Translations under genes and position numbers: made by a program
The notes under the pieces: generated by a model
Databases searched by the model: none
Told to the model about the DNA's origin: nothing
What the model saw: the letters and a program-made list of their open reading frames with translations, nothing else
From: Rhodospirillales bacterium
GTDB lineage: Bacteria > Pseudomonadota > Alphaproteobacteria > Acetobacterales > Acetobacteraceae
Direction of reading: 5' to 3'
DNA: 46,005 nt
NCBI GenBank assembly: GCA_028288785.1
Contig: JAQGHV010000046.1
Coordinates: 1 to 46,005 of the forward strand
Shown here: positions 29,525 to 35,226 of the stretch, piece after piece
How positions within the stretch are numbered: position 1 is the stretch's first letter
Layout: every line of letters begins with the position of its first letter

Positions 29525-30430
29525 TCAGCCGGCCAATGCCTGTGTAACGATCGCTTCATCCACGCATTCCTCGAAGCTGGGCAGCCGTGGCAGCTGGCCG
29601 GCCGTAGCCATCGAATCGCGCAGTCGGGTGAAGGCGTCACGCGGGAAATGCGGGGTCGGCGACCACAGGCGCTTGCCCTGGTAGCGAGCGAGGGCGGCCG
29701 TGAGCATCGCTGGCTCGATATCGGGGAAGTAGGCGGCGACGGTTGCGGCGATCTCGGCGGGCTGGCTCGCGTAGATCCATTCGAGGGATTCTGCGATGGC
29801 GCGGATCATCGCCTGGAACTCCTCGTGGCGCTCCACGATGCGCGCCTCAGTCGCGTAGAAGGCCGTGTAGGCGGTCGGGCCGCGATCCGACGCCGCCTGC
29901 CATACATGCCCGCCGGCGGCTTCCACCCGGCTCGCGAAGGGCTCGAACATCTGCGCGACGTCGAGCTCGCCGGCCTGCAACGCGGCGCTGTTCTCCGCCA
30001 TGGACGGGCCCAAGGTGACGTCGAGTGCCGCGGCGTCGAGCCCGGCCTCGGCGATGTCCTGCAGGCTGCACCACCAGGGCGTTGGCACCTCGGCCACGGC
30101 ACCGATGCGAAGGTTCGCGAGGTCGGCAGTCTTGAAGCCGGGATTCGGCGTCGCACCCATGAGGTAGAAGGGGTCCTTCATGACGACCGCGCAAAAACTG
30201 CGCAGCGGGCAGGCGGGATCGCGCGCGCGCATCAGCATGGGCCGCATCGGGCCGGACCAAGCAATGTCGACCTTGCCGGAGAGCAGATTGTCGGCCGCCT
30301 TGTTGGGGTCGCCGGCGGTGTCGCGGGTCACCTCGACACCCTGGCGGCGGTAGAAGCCGCGTTCCTCCGCAATGTAGAAGGGCGCGTAGAACACTGCGCG
30401 AAACGGCTCGTTCAGGATGATGGGGCGCAT
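29525..30430 (-). CDS. NMT1/THI5-like substrate-binding protein without signal peptide
   Basis: 301 residues. The protein starts directly with the family fold: LNEPFRAVFYAPFYIAEERG, KVDIAWSGPMRPMLM, VAEVPTPWWCSLQDIAEAG and RGPTAYTAFYATEARI. It belongs to the NMT1/THI5-like type II binding-protein group. No hydrophobic export signal precedes the fold, and the start (ATG 30430) cannot be extended sensibly. It may therefore be cytoplasmic, with a pyrimidine-like or other small ligand. No permease or ATPase of an NMT1-type ABC system is adjacent. A close relative lies at 34253-35155. It is divergent from minC across 156 bp. Confidence 0.8.
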   Translation of the reverse strand: MRPIILNEPFRAVFYAPFYIAEERGFYRRQGVEVTRDTAGDPNKAADNLLSGKVDIAWSGPMRPMLMRARDPACPLRSFCAVVMKDPFYLMGATPNPGFKTADLANLRIGAVAEVPTPWWCSLQDIAEAGLDAAALDVTLGPSMAENSAALQAGELDVAQMFEPFASRVEAAGGHVWQAASDRGPTAYTAFYATEARIVERHEEFQAMIRAIAESLEWIYASQPAEIAATVAAYFPDIEPAMLTAALARYQGKRLWSPTPHFPRDAFTRLRDSMATAGQLPRLPSFEECVDEAIVTQALAG

Positions 30431-30586: not shown

Positions 30587-31351
30587 ATGTCCGCCGACTC
30601 GCAGCCCCAACCCCGTTCCGAGCCGTTCCGCCTTCGCGGCGCGAACTTCAACCTGCTTGTGCTGCGGCTGCTCGATCCGCGGATCGAGGCGGTGGTGCCG
30701 GCCCTTGGCGATCAGTTCAAGCGCGCCCCCGGCTTCCTGCGCTTCGCGCCCATCGTGATCGGGCTCGCCGACCTCGCGGTGGCGCCGGCGGACATGGATT
30801 TCGTGGCACTGGTGCGCGAATTGAAGGCGCTGGAGATCGTGGCCATCGGCACCACCGGTGGCTCGCCCGAGCTGCGCCAGGCGGCGATTGCGGCTGGGCT
30901 GCCGCCGCTTCGCCAATCCGGCGGCGACGAGGCTCCGCCTGCAAATACGCCAGCGCCAGCGCCAACGCCCGAACCGGTTGCGGCCGCGGCACCCGTGCCG
31001 CCGGCGCCGAGCGGCCTGCGACCGACGATGATCGTGGACCTGCCGGTGCGCGCCGGGCAGCGGGTATGGGCGCCGGGCGCCGACATGATCGTGACCTCGA
31101 CCGTGAATGCGGGCGGCGAGGTCATTGCGGACGGCAACATCCACGTCTATGGCGCGCTCCGCGGTCGCGCGATCGCGGGTGGCGCCGACAATTTGAACGC
31201 GCGCATTTTCGCGCAGAATTTCGATCCGGAGCTGGTCTCCATCGCGGGGTTCTACGCGGTGCGGGAAGGCCTCGGGAAAGCGCCCATAGGGCGTGCGACA
31301 CAGGTACGTTTGGCAGGCGAGAGCCTGCGCTTCGATCCGTTCGGGGCGTAG
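30587..31351 (+). CDS. minC: Septum site-determining protein MinC
   Basis: 254 residues. The N-terminal domain begins FRLRGANFNLLVLRLLDPRI and contains FAPIVIGLADL. A Pro/Ala-rich linker (about 123-150) follows. The C-terminal beta-helix domain reads GQRVWAPGADMIVTSTVN, GEVIADGNIHVYGALRGRA, ARIFAQNFDPELVSIAG. The C-terminal domain binds MinD at the membrane and the N-terminal domain disrupts FtsZ polymers, blocking division at the poles. It is followed after 17 bases by minD. The GNIHVYG-LRGRA stretch is the strongest family mark. Confidence 0.95.
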   Translation: MSADSQPQPRSEPFRLRGANFNLLVLRLLDPRIEAVVPALGDQFKRAPGFLRFAPIVIGLADLAVAPADMDFVALVRELKALEIVAIGTTGGSPELRQAAIAAGLPPLRQSGGDEAPPANTPAPAPTPEPVAAAAPVPPAPSGLRPTMIVDLPVRAGQRVWAPGADMIVTSTVNAGGEVIADGNIHVYGALRGRAIAGGADNLNARIFAQNFDPELVSIAGFYAVREGLGKAPIGRATQVRLAGESLRFDPFGA

Positions 31352-31368
31352 GGACAGGGAGATTGCGT

Positions 31369-32187
31369 ATGGCGCAGGTTGTGGTGATCACGTCCGGAAA
31401 AGGCGGCGTCGGGAAGACGACGAGTTCGGCGGCTATCGCCACGGGCCTGGCGCAGCGCGGCAAGAAGACTGTCGTCATCGACTTCGACGTGGGGCTGCGC
31501 AACCTGGACCTCATCATGGGGGTCGAGCGGCGGGTGGTGTTCGATATCGTCAACGTCATCCAGGGCGATGCGAAGCTCAACCAGGCGCTCATCCGCGACA
31601 AGCGGGTCGAGCACTTGGCGATCCTTCCGGCCAGCCAGACGCGCGACAAGGACGCCCTGACCAAGGAGGGCGTCCAGATAATCATCGAGGAGCTGTCGAA
31701 GGACTACGACTACATCATCTGCGACAGCCCGGCCGGGATCGAGAAGGGGGCGCTGCTGGCGCTATACTTCGCGGACCAGGCGATCGTGGTGACGAACCCG
31801 GAAGTGAGCTCGGTGCGGGACTCCGACCGTATTCTCGGCGTGCTGCAGTCGAAGTCCAAGCGAGCCGAGGAAAAGCGCGAGCCAGTGAAGGAACACCTGC
31901 TGGTGACGCGCTACGATCCGGCGCGGGTGGAGCGCGGTGAGATGCTGAAGCTCGAGGACATCCGGGAGATTTTGGCGATCCCGCTCCTCGGCGTGGTGCC
32001 CGAGAGCGAGAGCGTGCTGCGCGCCTCCAACACCGGCACGCCCGTGATCCTGGATGCGGAGAGTCCGGCGGGCCTCGCCTATGGCGATGCGGTCGCGCGC
32101 TTCCTTGGCGATGAGCGGCCGCACCGCTTCCTCGAAGTGGAGAAGAAGGGCCTGTTCAAGCGGCTGTTTGGGGGGAGGGCGGCGTGA
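31369..32187 (+). CDS. minD: Septum site-determining ATPase MinD
   Basis: 272 residues. Deviant Walker A KGGVGKT (11-17) in a ParA-type ATPase. VVIDFDVGLRNLDLIMGVE and RDKDALTKEGVQIIIEEL are typical MinD, as is ICDSPAGIEKGALLALYFAD. The C-terminus ends in an amphipathic membrane-targeting helix (KKGLFKRLFGG). MinD-ATP dimerises on the inner membrane, recruits MinC and oscillates through MinE-stimulated hydrolysis. A good AGGGAG ribosome site precedes ATG 31369. Its stop overlaps the start of minE by one base (TGATG). Confidence 0.97.
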   Translation: MAQVVVITSGKGGVGKTTSSAAIATGLAQRGKKTVVIDFDVGLRNLDLIMGVERRVVFDIVNVIQGDAKLNQALIRDKRVEHLAILPASQTRDKDALTKEGVQIIIEELSKDYDYIICDSPAGIEKGALLALYFADQAIVVTNPEVSSVRDSDRILGVLQSKSKRAEEKREPVKEHLLVTRYDPARVERGEMLKLEDIREILAIPLLGVVPESESVLRASNTGTPVILDAESPAGLAYGDAVARFLGDERPHRFLEVEKKGLFKRLFGGRAA

Positions 32188-32465
32188 TGGCATGGCTCGA
32201 CATCTTCCGGAGCCGCAAGCCGCCGCCGTCGGCGTCGGCTGGGGCAGCGAAGGAGCGCTTGCAGATCGTGCTGGCGCATGAGCGCATCGGCCGCACGAGG
32301 GAAGACTTCCTGCCGAAGCTGCAAGCGGAGCTGGTCGCGGTGGTCGCGCGGTATGTGGCGATCGATCCCGGGAAGGTGGCGGTCAACCTGGATCGCGGCG
32401 GGGATATGAGTACGTTGGCCATCGAGATCGAGTTGCCGGGGCCGCGGGGAGCGGTGGCGCGGTAG
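32187..32465 (+). CDS. minE: Cell division topological specificity factor MinE
   Basis: 92 residues. The N-terminus (MAWLDIFRSRK) is the amphipathic membrane-binding segment. AKERLQIVLAHERIGRTRED is the contact helix that displaces MinC from MinD and triggers its ATPase. The C-terminal specificity domain runs through FLPKLQAELVAVVARYVAID and STLAIEIELPG. This is the intact copy. A frameshifted duplicate lies 340 bp downstream at 32807. The start is translationally coupled to minD; a GTG three bases earlier (32184) is the alternative. Confidence 0.95.
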   Translation: MAWLDIFRSRKPPPSASAGAAKERLQIVLAHERIGRTREDFLPKLQAELVAVVARYVAIDPGKVAVNLDRGGDMSTLAIEIELPGPRGAVAR

Positions 32466-32742
32466 TCTGCCCGATGCGCCGTCGCACGTTCGACGAACAA
32501 TGAAGGTATCAACCATGCGATCGATCTTCCGGAGTGTGGTGATCCTACTGGTTTAGACGGCTGGCGGAGCTTTGCTCAGCGTATGCGCGTCCGCGTGCTG
32601 CCGTGGGTCTTCGGGGCTGTGCATCAGCTGCTGAAGGAGTTGGGGTAAGGCGACCGCGTCGCGGTTGCGATCGTGCTTTTCAGCAATGCGGTGCCAGCTT
32701 TCGCCGTCGTTTGCCGTAAGAGTTCAGCCGAGGCGTCTGAGC
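32466..32742. other. Gene-free stretch between minE and the gene remnants
   Basis: About 277 bp with no gene that I can support; with the remnant that follows, the stretch from minE to the minE copy is 340 bp. Short reading frames exist on both strands but none resembles a known protein. It may contain further decayed sequence, since both flanks are products of rearrangement. No terminator hairpin or repeat was recognised. Confidence 0.4.
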
Positions 32743-32808
32743 TCACCGCAACGCCTCCTCCGCAACCTCCTGTACCACCATCCCTGAAAACCCATTGCTG
32801 TGCGTGAT
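32743..32808 (-). pseudogene. C-terminal remnant of an NMT1/THI5-like binding protein gene
   Basis: Reading leftward, the last 20 or so codons spell ITHSNGFSGMVVQEVAEEAL and then a stop at 32743. This matches the end of the intact protein encoded at 34253-35155 (ITHSNGFAGMVAEEVVEEAL). At the DNA level the two stretches are visibly similar through the stop. Upstream coding sequence is missing: at 32802-32808 the remnant runs into the start of the minE copy, sharing the bases GCGTGAT with both parent sequences. It is the tail of a third gene of this family, destroyed by rearrangement. Confidence 0.75.
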
Positions 32809-33083
32809 GGGTCGGCTGGACATCTTCCGGAGCCGCAAGCCGCCCTGGCCGGCGACCGCGCGCGCTGCGAAGGAGCGCTTGCAGATCGTGCTGGCGCACG
32901 AGCGCATCGGCCGCACGCGCGAAGGCTTCCTGCCGAAGCTGCAGGCGGAGCTTGTGGCGGCGGTCGCCCGGTATGTGGCGATCGATCCCGGGAAGGTGGC
33001 GGTCAACCTGCATTGCGGAGGGACATGAGCACGCTGACGATTGAAATTGAGCCGTCGGAGCAGCGCAGGTGGTGGCACGGTAG
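32807..33083 (+). pseudogene. Frameshifted duplicate of minE
   Basis: Starting at ATG 32807 the sequence repeats minE: LDIFRSRKPP, AAKERLQIVLAHERIGRTRE, FLPKLQAELVA and ARYVAIDPGKVAVNL, all with high DNA similarity to 32187-32465. A single-base loss at about 33018-33023 brings TGA into frame at 33026-33028, giving a 73-residue product that ends CGGT. The remaining specificity-domain sequence (STLTIEIE) continues in another frame, and a GGTAG at about 33080 matches the original minE end. The truncated product would keep the MinD-contact helix but lack the last strand. Whether it is expressed is unknown; the upstream region is a remnant of another gene and shows no clear promoter. Confidence 0.82.
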
Positions 33084-33288: not shown

Positions 33289-34242
33289 ATGCTGCACCTC
33301 AGCCACGTCCTTGCCCTACCACTTGCCATCCCCGCCATCGCTCGCGCTCAGAGTTGGCCCAGTCAGCCCATTCGCCTCATCGTGCCCTTTGGTGCCGGCG
33401 GCGCCACCGACATCTTCGCGCGCATGGTCGCGGACCGCATCGGCCCGGCGGTGGGCGCGCGGGTCATTGTGGAAAACCGACCCGGCGCCGGGTCCACCAT
33501 CGGCGCGCAGGCGGTGGCGCGCGCGGTGCCGGATGGGCACACATTGCTGGTGCTCACCTCCTCCCACACCATCGGCGAGACGCTGCTTCCAGGGCGCGGC
33601 TATGTGCTGGCGCGCGATTTCGTGCCCGTCGCAGCGTTCAACAGCACCGCACTCGCCATTGTCGCCAGCCCGAGCCTGCCGGTCAGCGACATGGCTGGGC
33701 TGATCGCCCATGCGAAGCAGAACCCAGGCGCAGTTGCCTATGCCACCACTGGCATCGGCACCGTGAACCACCTGGCCGCTGAACTCATCCGCCTGCAGGC
33801 AGGGTTTGAGTGGCTGCACGTGCCCTATCGAACCGGCGCTGAGGCGCGCAGCGACATGATGGCGGGGCGTGTGCCCGTGATGTTCGACCCGGTCGCCGGC
33901 GCCGTACCCCTGGCACGGGAACGGCGGGCCAATGTGCTGGCCGTAACGACAGCCGCGCGCTCGGCGGCCATGCCCGAGGTGCCGAGCGTCGGTGAGACCC
34001 TGCCGGGCTTTGATGTCGGCCTGCTGATTGGGCTTCTGGCGCCCGCGGGCACTCCGGAGCCGATCGTGCAGCACTTGGCCGGGGCGGTTCGTGCGGTGAC
34101 TGCGGCACCGGACATCGCGTCGCTGTGGCGGGAGCAGGGGGCTGAACCCCTAACCCTGTCCCCCGAAGCCTGGAGCGCGCTGCTGGCCGCAGACACAGCG
34201 CGCTGGGCGCAGGTGGTGCGGGATGCCGGAGTGACGGTGTGA
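33289..34242 (+). CDS. Bug-family (TctC-type) tripartite tricarboxylate transporter receptor
   Basis: 317 residues. An N-terminal export signal (HVLALPLAIPAIARAQS) is followed by the Bug fold: PIRLIVPFGAGGATDIFARM, ENRPGAGSTIGAQAVARA, DMAGLIAHAK, VAYATTGIGTVNHLAAEL and VPSVGETLPGFDV. Such periplasmic receptors bind carboxylates or amino acid derivatives and deliver them to TctAB-type permeases. No TctA or TctB gene occurs in the window, so it is one of the orphan Bug proteins common in these bacteria. A GGGGAGA ribosome site precedes the ATG. The gene ends 10 bases before the convergent NMT1-like gene. Confidence 0.93.
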   Translation: MLHLSHVLALPLAIPAIARAQSWPSQPIRLIVPFGAGGATDIFARMVADRIGPAVGARVIVENRPGAGSTIGAQAVARAVPDGHTLLVLTSSHTIGETLLPGRGYVLARDFVPVAAFNSTALAIVASPSLPVSDMAGLIAHAKQNPGAVAYATTGIGTVNHLAAELIRLQAGFEWLHVPYRTGAEARSDMMAGRVPVMFDPVAGAVPLARERRANVLAVTTAARSAAMPEVPSVGETLPGFDVGLLIGLLAPAGTPEPIVQHLAGAVRAVTAAPDIASLWREQGAEPLTLSPEAWSALLAADTARWAQVVRDAGVTV

Positions 34243-34252
34243 GCGTGGCGCC

Positions 34253-35155
34253 TCACCCCAGCGCCTCCTCGACCACCTCCTCCGCCACCATCCCCGCAAA
34301 CCCATTGCTGTGCGTGATCGCCCCCGCCGACAGCATCGCCGTCTCCAGCCGCACCAGCGCCTCCTCCGGAAAGCGCGGGTCCAGCGTCCAGATGCCCAGC
34401 TCACGATACCGCCCGATGCAGCGCGCCAGCAGCGTCTCCACCATCTCCGGGAAGAACGGCCCCACCACCCGAGCGCATTCCTCGTCGCTCGCATCGTCGA
34501 ACCAGTCGAGCGTCACGGCCAGGCCGCGCACCATCGCCTCGAACTCCTCGCGACGGTCCGCGATGCGCGCCACCGTGCTGTAGAACGCCGTGTAACTCGT
34601 GGGCCCGCGCGAAGCCGCCGCGTAGTAGATGTGGCACCCGGCATCCGTCAGGCGCGTGAGGTAGGGTTCGAACAGCTGCGCGCAGTCGAGCGTGCCGGCC
34701 AGCACCGCCGCCGCGTTCTCCTCCATGCTCCCGTCGGTGATGCGCCGGATGCTGGCCGGGTCCATCCCCGCGCGGCGGAGGTCATCCTGCAGCGTCCACC
34801 ACGGCGTCGGCACCTCGCTCACGGTCGCCAGTGTCATCTGCGCCAAGTCCGTCAGCGCGAAACCCGGGCGCGCCGCGCGGCCCACCAGGCAGAACGGGTC
34901 GCGCATCACCACTGCGCCGAACAGCCGCAGCGGACTGCCATGATCCTTGTCATGCGCGAGGAACAGCCGCATCGGCCCACCCCAGGCGAGATCAGCCTCG
35001 CCCTCCAGCACCGCATCCTTCGCCAGCGACGGCACCAGCCCCGACCTGAGCGTCACGGCGACACCCTCCGCCGCGTAGTCGCCACGCGCGAGTGCGGCAT
35101 AGAAAGGCGCATAGAAGATCGCCCGGAAGGGCTCCTGGAGGATGATGTCGTGCAC
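34253..35155 (-). CDS. NMT1/THI5-like substrate-binding protein without signal peptide (second copy)
   Basis: 300 residues from GTG 35155, the codon just before DIILQEPFRAIFYAPFYAAL. It is a clear paralogue of the protein at 29525-30430: ADLAWGGPMRLFLA, SEVPTPWWTLQDDLRRAG, RGPTSYTAFYSTVARI and a shared overall plan. Extending upstream adds only a non-hydrophobic tail, so an export signal is again absent. A cytoplasmic ligand-binding or enzymatic role similar to the NMT1/THI5 fold is possible. It is flanked on both sides by Bug receptor genes on the other strand. No NMT1-type permease or ATPase is near. Confidence 0.8.
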   Translation of the reverse strand: MHDIILQEPFRAIFYAPFYAALARGDYAAEGVAVTLRSGLVPSLAKDAVLEGEADLAWGGPMRLFLAHDKDHGSPLRLFGAVVMRDPFCLVGRAARPGFALTDLAQMTLATVSEVPTPWWTLQDDLRRAGMDPASIRRITDGSMEENAAAVLAGTLDCAQLFEPYLTRLTDAGCHIYYAAASRGPTSYTAFYSTVARIADRREEFEAMVRGLAVTLDWFDDASDEECARVVGPFFPEMVETLLARCIGRYRELGIWTLDPRFPEEALVRLETAMLSAGAITHSNGFAGMVAEEVVEEALG

Positions 35156-35226
35156 TGCAGCGGCTCCGGTCTGGACGGGGTCGCAGCTTGCGCCATGATG
35201 TGCCCTCTGCAAACCCGGGAGCCACC

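Follow-up and report, generated by a model that had tools for sequence, protein, structure and literature searches.

Tandem duplications with short junctions, for instance those of Salmonella, end at short direct repeats and contain a novel join between the two ends of the duplicated unit. Among spontaneous rearrangements in Salmonella, the confirmed duplication junctions had more than 10 bp (PMC3411829). The locus described here likewise has end points at short direct repeats and a join between the two ends of one unit, but it is old and eroded, its repeat is 7 bp long and its unit is small, about 350 bp. The gene concerned is minE, which encodes the cell-division topological specificity factor MinE (PF03776). 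Residues 1–31 of E. coli MinE contact MinD, and the sheet of the MinE dimer, including its last β-strand, has been described (PMC2883074).

In Plastoroseomonas and Neoroseomonas, the min locus has the order NMT1-like gene, minCDE, NMT1-like gene, Bug-type gene and gamma-glutamyltransferase. The window, by which we mean the whole 46,005-nucleotide stretch analysed, keeps this order, but a second copy of minE and an extra Bug-type gene of its own, placed between minE and the right NMT1-like gene, occur in the window only. Compared with MinE of PF03776, the second copy (minE 2) is clearly derived from the neighbouring minE (minE 1), yet the ribosome-binding site is missing, the sequence is truncated and invariant residues have been lost.

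Results

The first-pass annotation of this DNA had reported, beside an intact minCDE (30587–32465), a duplicate minE joined to a leftover tail of an NMT1/THI5-like gene. Alignment of each half with its parent bears this out. The tail (tail copy 1, 32743–32809) matches the final 67 bp of the NMT1-like gene (34253–34319) with 84% identity, and minE 2 (32803–33083) aligns with intact minE (32182–32465) over the full length, also with 84% identity. The minE copy had been said to begin exactly where the tail ends, at 32807; the join is indeed gap-free, but the homology to minE already starts at 32803, with the GCGTGAT that belongs to the last minD codons. The gene that had been placed "at 34253" is the intact parent of the tail, with the correction that it is encoded on the minus strand, 34253 being its end. 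In a search of the whole 4.1-Mb genome, the matches of minE (E = 2.3e-82) and of the tail (E = 2.5e-14) were both far above chance, and no further copies of either were reported.

As had been proposed, the motif GCGTGAT is present in both parents and is retained once at the join. When pairs of breakpoints were drawn at random between minE and the NMT1-like gene, 7 bp or more were shared in about 0.1% of draws; the match is therefore unlikely to be luck. An overlap of 7 bp would give an assembler far too little sequence on which to make a join. A chimeric contig or a mixture of strains would fit the fragmented state of the genome (391 contigs), but we regard such an artefact as highly improbable, because the copies disagree at about 16% of positions and hence do not represent one set of reads used in two places, and because the flanking gene order agrees with that of relatives on both sides.

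Table 1 Features of the minE–NMT1 region; positions refer to the window
Feature	Position	Strand	Remarks
minD, intact	31369..32187	+	Pfam P-loop ATPase matches
Shine-Dalgarno of minE, GGGGGGAGGG	in last codons of minD		duplex energy -11.8 kcal/mol
Left GCGTGAT site	32182-32188		minD/minE overlap
minE, intact working copy (minE 1)	32187..32465	+	Pfam MinE E=4.6e-20; 91-92% identical protein in P. arctica
Spacer 1, unique sequence	32466..32742 (277 bp)	+	no clear similarity, no convincing relatives
Tail copy 1, leftover last 22 codons of NMT1-like gene	32743..32809	-	56/67 identical to 34253-34319
GCGTGAT junction	32803..32809		one of two parental copies kept; alignments, chance ~0.1%
minE copy 2 (minE 2), probable pseudogene	32803..33083	+	open frame 32807-33028, frameshift near 33020
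TctC/Bug-type binding-protein gene	33289..34242	+	Pfam TctC E=1.8e-54; synteny
Intact NMT1/THI5-like binding-protein gene, parent of the tail	34253..35158	-	Pfam NMT1 E=1.2e-11
Right GCGTGAT site	34312-34318		inside NMT1-like gene tail

We compared the locus with those of relatives, among them two other genomes of the genus. In Plastoroseomonas arctica (same genus; G001, locus L038), minE and the NMT1-like gene converge, with 6 bp between their ends: the fusion sequence, used as a query, placed minE at 109175–109455 and the NMT1-like tail at 109462–109527 of one contig, where minE ends in TAG, followed by 6 bases and the NMT1-like stop on the other strand. The adjoining NMT1-like protein is 90% identical to that of the window's tail parent, and the minE/NMT1-like neighbourhood is common to P. 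arctica, P. hellenica and several Neoroseomonas. The two halves of the fusion thus run minE then tail in P. arctica and tail then minE in the window, with equal strand relations. Such a permuted order is the signature of a tandem-duplication junction. The join unites the downstream end of the unit with its upstream end in the same orientation, and the short direct repeat flanks the unit on either side and is retained as a single copy in the join. No other match spanning the fusion occurred among the matches listed for 397 family genomes (the weak ones listed in part), and a translated search of 80 minE loci, 76 of them with at least 2 kb downstream, detected no second minE-like segment; a relative carrying the same arrangement was found in neither set.

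The first-pass annotation had suggested a duplication or inversion joined by microhomology. The duplication is supported, and the direct adjacency of minE and the NMT1-like gene in P. arctica identifies it as the tandem type; inversion is an unnecessary route, since both parts of the fusion keep their P. arctica orientation. We conclude, with a probability of about 0.87, that the fusion is the relic of a tandem duplication in which the unit, about 350 bp long, lay between two GCGTGAT sites, the second minE having decayed since.

The rates of change in the four pieces bear on the age of the event. With P. arctica as the outgroup, 22 differences are common to minE 1 and minE 2, 10 are peculiar to minE 1 and 25 to minE 2. 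The tails are 84% identical to each other and 75% (tail 1) and 84% (tail 2) identical to that of P. arctica; calculated from these pairwise identities, own change amounts to about 13% in the loose tail 1 and about 4% in tail 2, which is attached to the NMT1-like gene. Change in the inner pieces is thus two to three times that in the outer ones, as would follow if one event took place after divergence from P. arctica. Two observations weigh against the main reading. Over codons 1–70, dN/dS is 0.29 between the minE copies as against 0.066 between minE 1 and P. arctica, a relaxed value that falls short of 1; part of the shortfall is constraint on copy 1. Identity blocks between the copies slightly exceed the random expectation in length (longest 42 bp, p = 0.009), which could reflect residual constraint or gene conversion.

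The spacers also count against a plain duplication. The two copies of the unit are alike in their minE and tail parts, but the intervening spacers are not, which requires two later insertions or replacements. Both spacer 1, following minE 1, and spacer 2, a 1.17-kb stretch with the TctC/Bug-type gene following minE 2, are absent in P. arctica. The same order of pieces, with spacers different from the outset, would arise from unequal crossing with DNA of a related strain, in which the recipient's NMT1-gene tail was joined at GCGTGAT to an incoming segment of minE, Bug gene and NMT1 gene. This alternative, which we consider unlikely, would account for the unrelated spacers and is in keeping with the 16% difference between the minE copies, about as large as that between minE 1 and P. 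arctica. It is opposed by the 22 differences from P. arctica that both minE copies share and by the location of the excess change, which falls on the inner, useless pieces, the pattern that decay following one local duplication should give; these observations are still compatible with a closely related donor. The spacers may both be later arrivals, or a crossing partner may already have differed, and the reading of the fusion is independent of this choice.

Spacer 1 showed no similarity clearly above shuffled sequences to spacer 2, to minE or to the NMT1-like gene. We accordingly rejected the two spacers as copies of one spacer, and likewise dismissed the idea that spacer 1 holds a third remnant, of minE or of NMT1, as the best scores lay inside the shuffle range. 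Nor does spacer 1 resemble a known gene: it has no Pfam match, and its weak matches in 3 of 200 family genomes (27–40 bp) look like chance, the one inspected (L119) falling in unrelated genes. With no convincing relative in these 200 genomes, it is perhaps a decayed insertion. A search for RNA elements gave no Rfam match in the window.

We then considered the state of minE 2. One base has been lost near 33020, so that the open frame from 32807 ends at 33028, after 73 codons, in agreement with the frameshift given in the first-pass annotation; another 1-base gap follows downstream. Each of the 30 relatives examined has the Shine-Dalgarno sequence of minE just upstream, in the last minD codons, with pairing energies of -10.3 to -11.9 kcal/mol. 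The value is -11.8 kcal/mol for minE 1 versus +0.4 kcal/mol upstream of minE 2. The breakpoint falls between the Shine-Dalgarno sequence of minE and its start codon. Since it left the Shine-Dalgarno sequence behind and the replacement sequence does not pair, minE 2 has been without a recognisable ribosome-binding site from birth. No sigma-70-like promoter was found in the region. Furthermore, minE 2 carries the replacements W3R, D40G, V52A, D69H and R70C, which introduce residues absent at those places from all 80 relatives; D40, V52 and R70 are invariant among them. Placed by homology, the lost C-terminal part should hold the last β-strand of the dimer sheet. Thus minE 2 has neither an open frame through the topological specificity domain, nor a translation signal, nor the conserved residues of a functional MinE. 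Judged from its sequence, minE 2 is very probably a dead pseudogene, and its protein is presumably not made.

The first-pass annotation had raised the possibility that the open part, if made, interferes with Min oscillation. It is true that the segment KERLQIVLAHERIGRTRE, which corresponds to the MinD-contact region of E. coli MinE, is intact and that Pfam still matches MinE in minE 2 (E = 1.3e-15). A truncated MinE of about 73 residues that modulates or disturbs MinD is nevertheless extremely improbable: the Shine-Dalgarno sequence and the C-terminal part with the last β-strand are gone, the region yielded no sigma-70-like promoter, W3R affects the N-terminal end, and replacements fall on invariant residues. 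Production by read-through from the min operon, with the product tuning MinD as a dominant-negative MinE fragment, would be just as improbable. In view of the lost ribosome-binding site, the frameshift before the last β-strand and the replaced invariant residues, the suggested interference is not supported. The readable MinD-contact segment fits a modest age of minE 2 and does not show use.

Discussion

The fusion is a real, well explained and ordinary gene relic. It offers a clean, well-polarised case of a short-homology tandem duplication that leaves a fusion relic. It also illustrates how a breakpoint can sever a gene from a ribosome-binding site located in its upstream neighbour, the copy being probably dead from birth. 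About Min function, minE 2 teaches nothing new.

The tandem duplication probably proceeded as follows. The unit would have comprised the start of minE, the remainder of minE, a short spacer and the terminal 67 bp of the convergent NMT1-like gene, bounded by two direct 7-bp sites: the GCGTGAT in the minD/minE overlap and the GCGTGAT in the NMT1-like tail. Replication slippage or unequal crossing between sister chromosomes could have supplied the molecular route. The product would have been minD-[minE-tail]-[minE-tail]-rest of the NMT1-like gene. Of these pieces, selection maintains the minE that still adjoins minD and its Shine-Dalgarno sequence, and the tail that continues into the rest of the NMT1-like gene; the two in between, tail 1 and minE 2, are useless and decay. 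The two unrelated stretches between the pieces would be later arrivals or derive from a diverged partner.

It had also been suggested that this locus recombines repeatedly, as NMT1-like genes stand on both flanks of minCDE. This is not supported. The two genes (29525–30430 and 34253–35158) are 45% identical and belong to distinct, older clades, and in both clades the window clusters with P. arctica and P. hellenica; they are old paralogues, the left one is uninvolved, and the right one is simply the neighbour of minE. Paired NMT1-like genes around minCDE occur in Plastoroseomonas, some Neoroseomonas and Caldovatus; the left gene is widespread in the sampled loci and the right one is not.

Relatives differ in the sequence just downstream of minE, but this reflects ordinary turnover of genes and does not point to a special recombination site. 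Between minE and the NMT1-like gene, P. arctica and P. hellenica lack the window's Bug-type gene (33289–34242). We rejected this gene as an ancestral part of the unit on this ground and because the gene at that place in three Neoroseomonas-like loci (L059, L073 and L103) differs from it (about 30% identical). The best relatives of the window's gene elsewhere share about 45% identity with it, and the Plastoroseomonas genomes each contain at least 64 matches to it. The genes of L059, L073 and L103, downstream of minE, are mutually orthologous, with 86% DNA identity. The site downstream of minE appears to have gained Bug-type genes at least twice.
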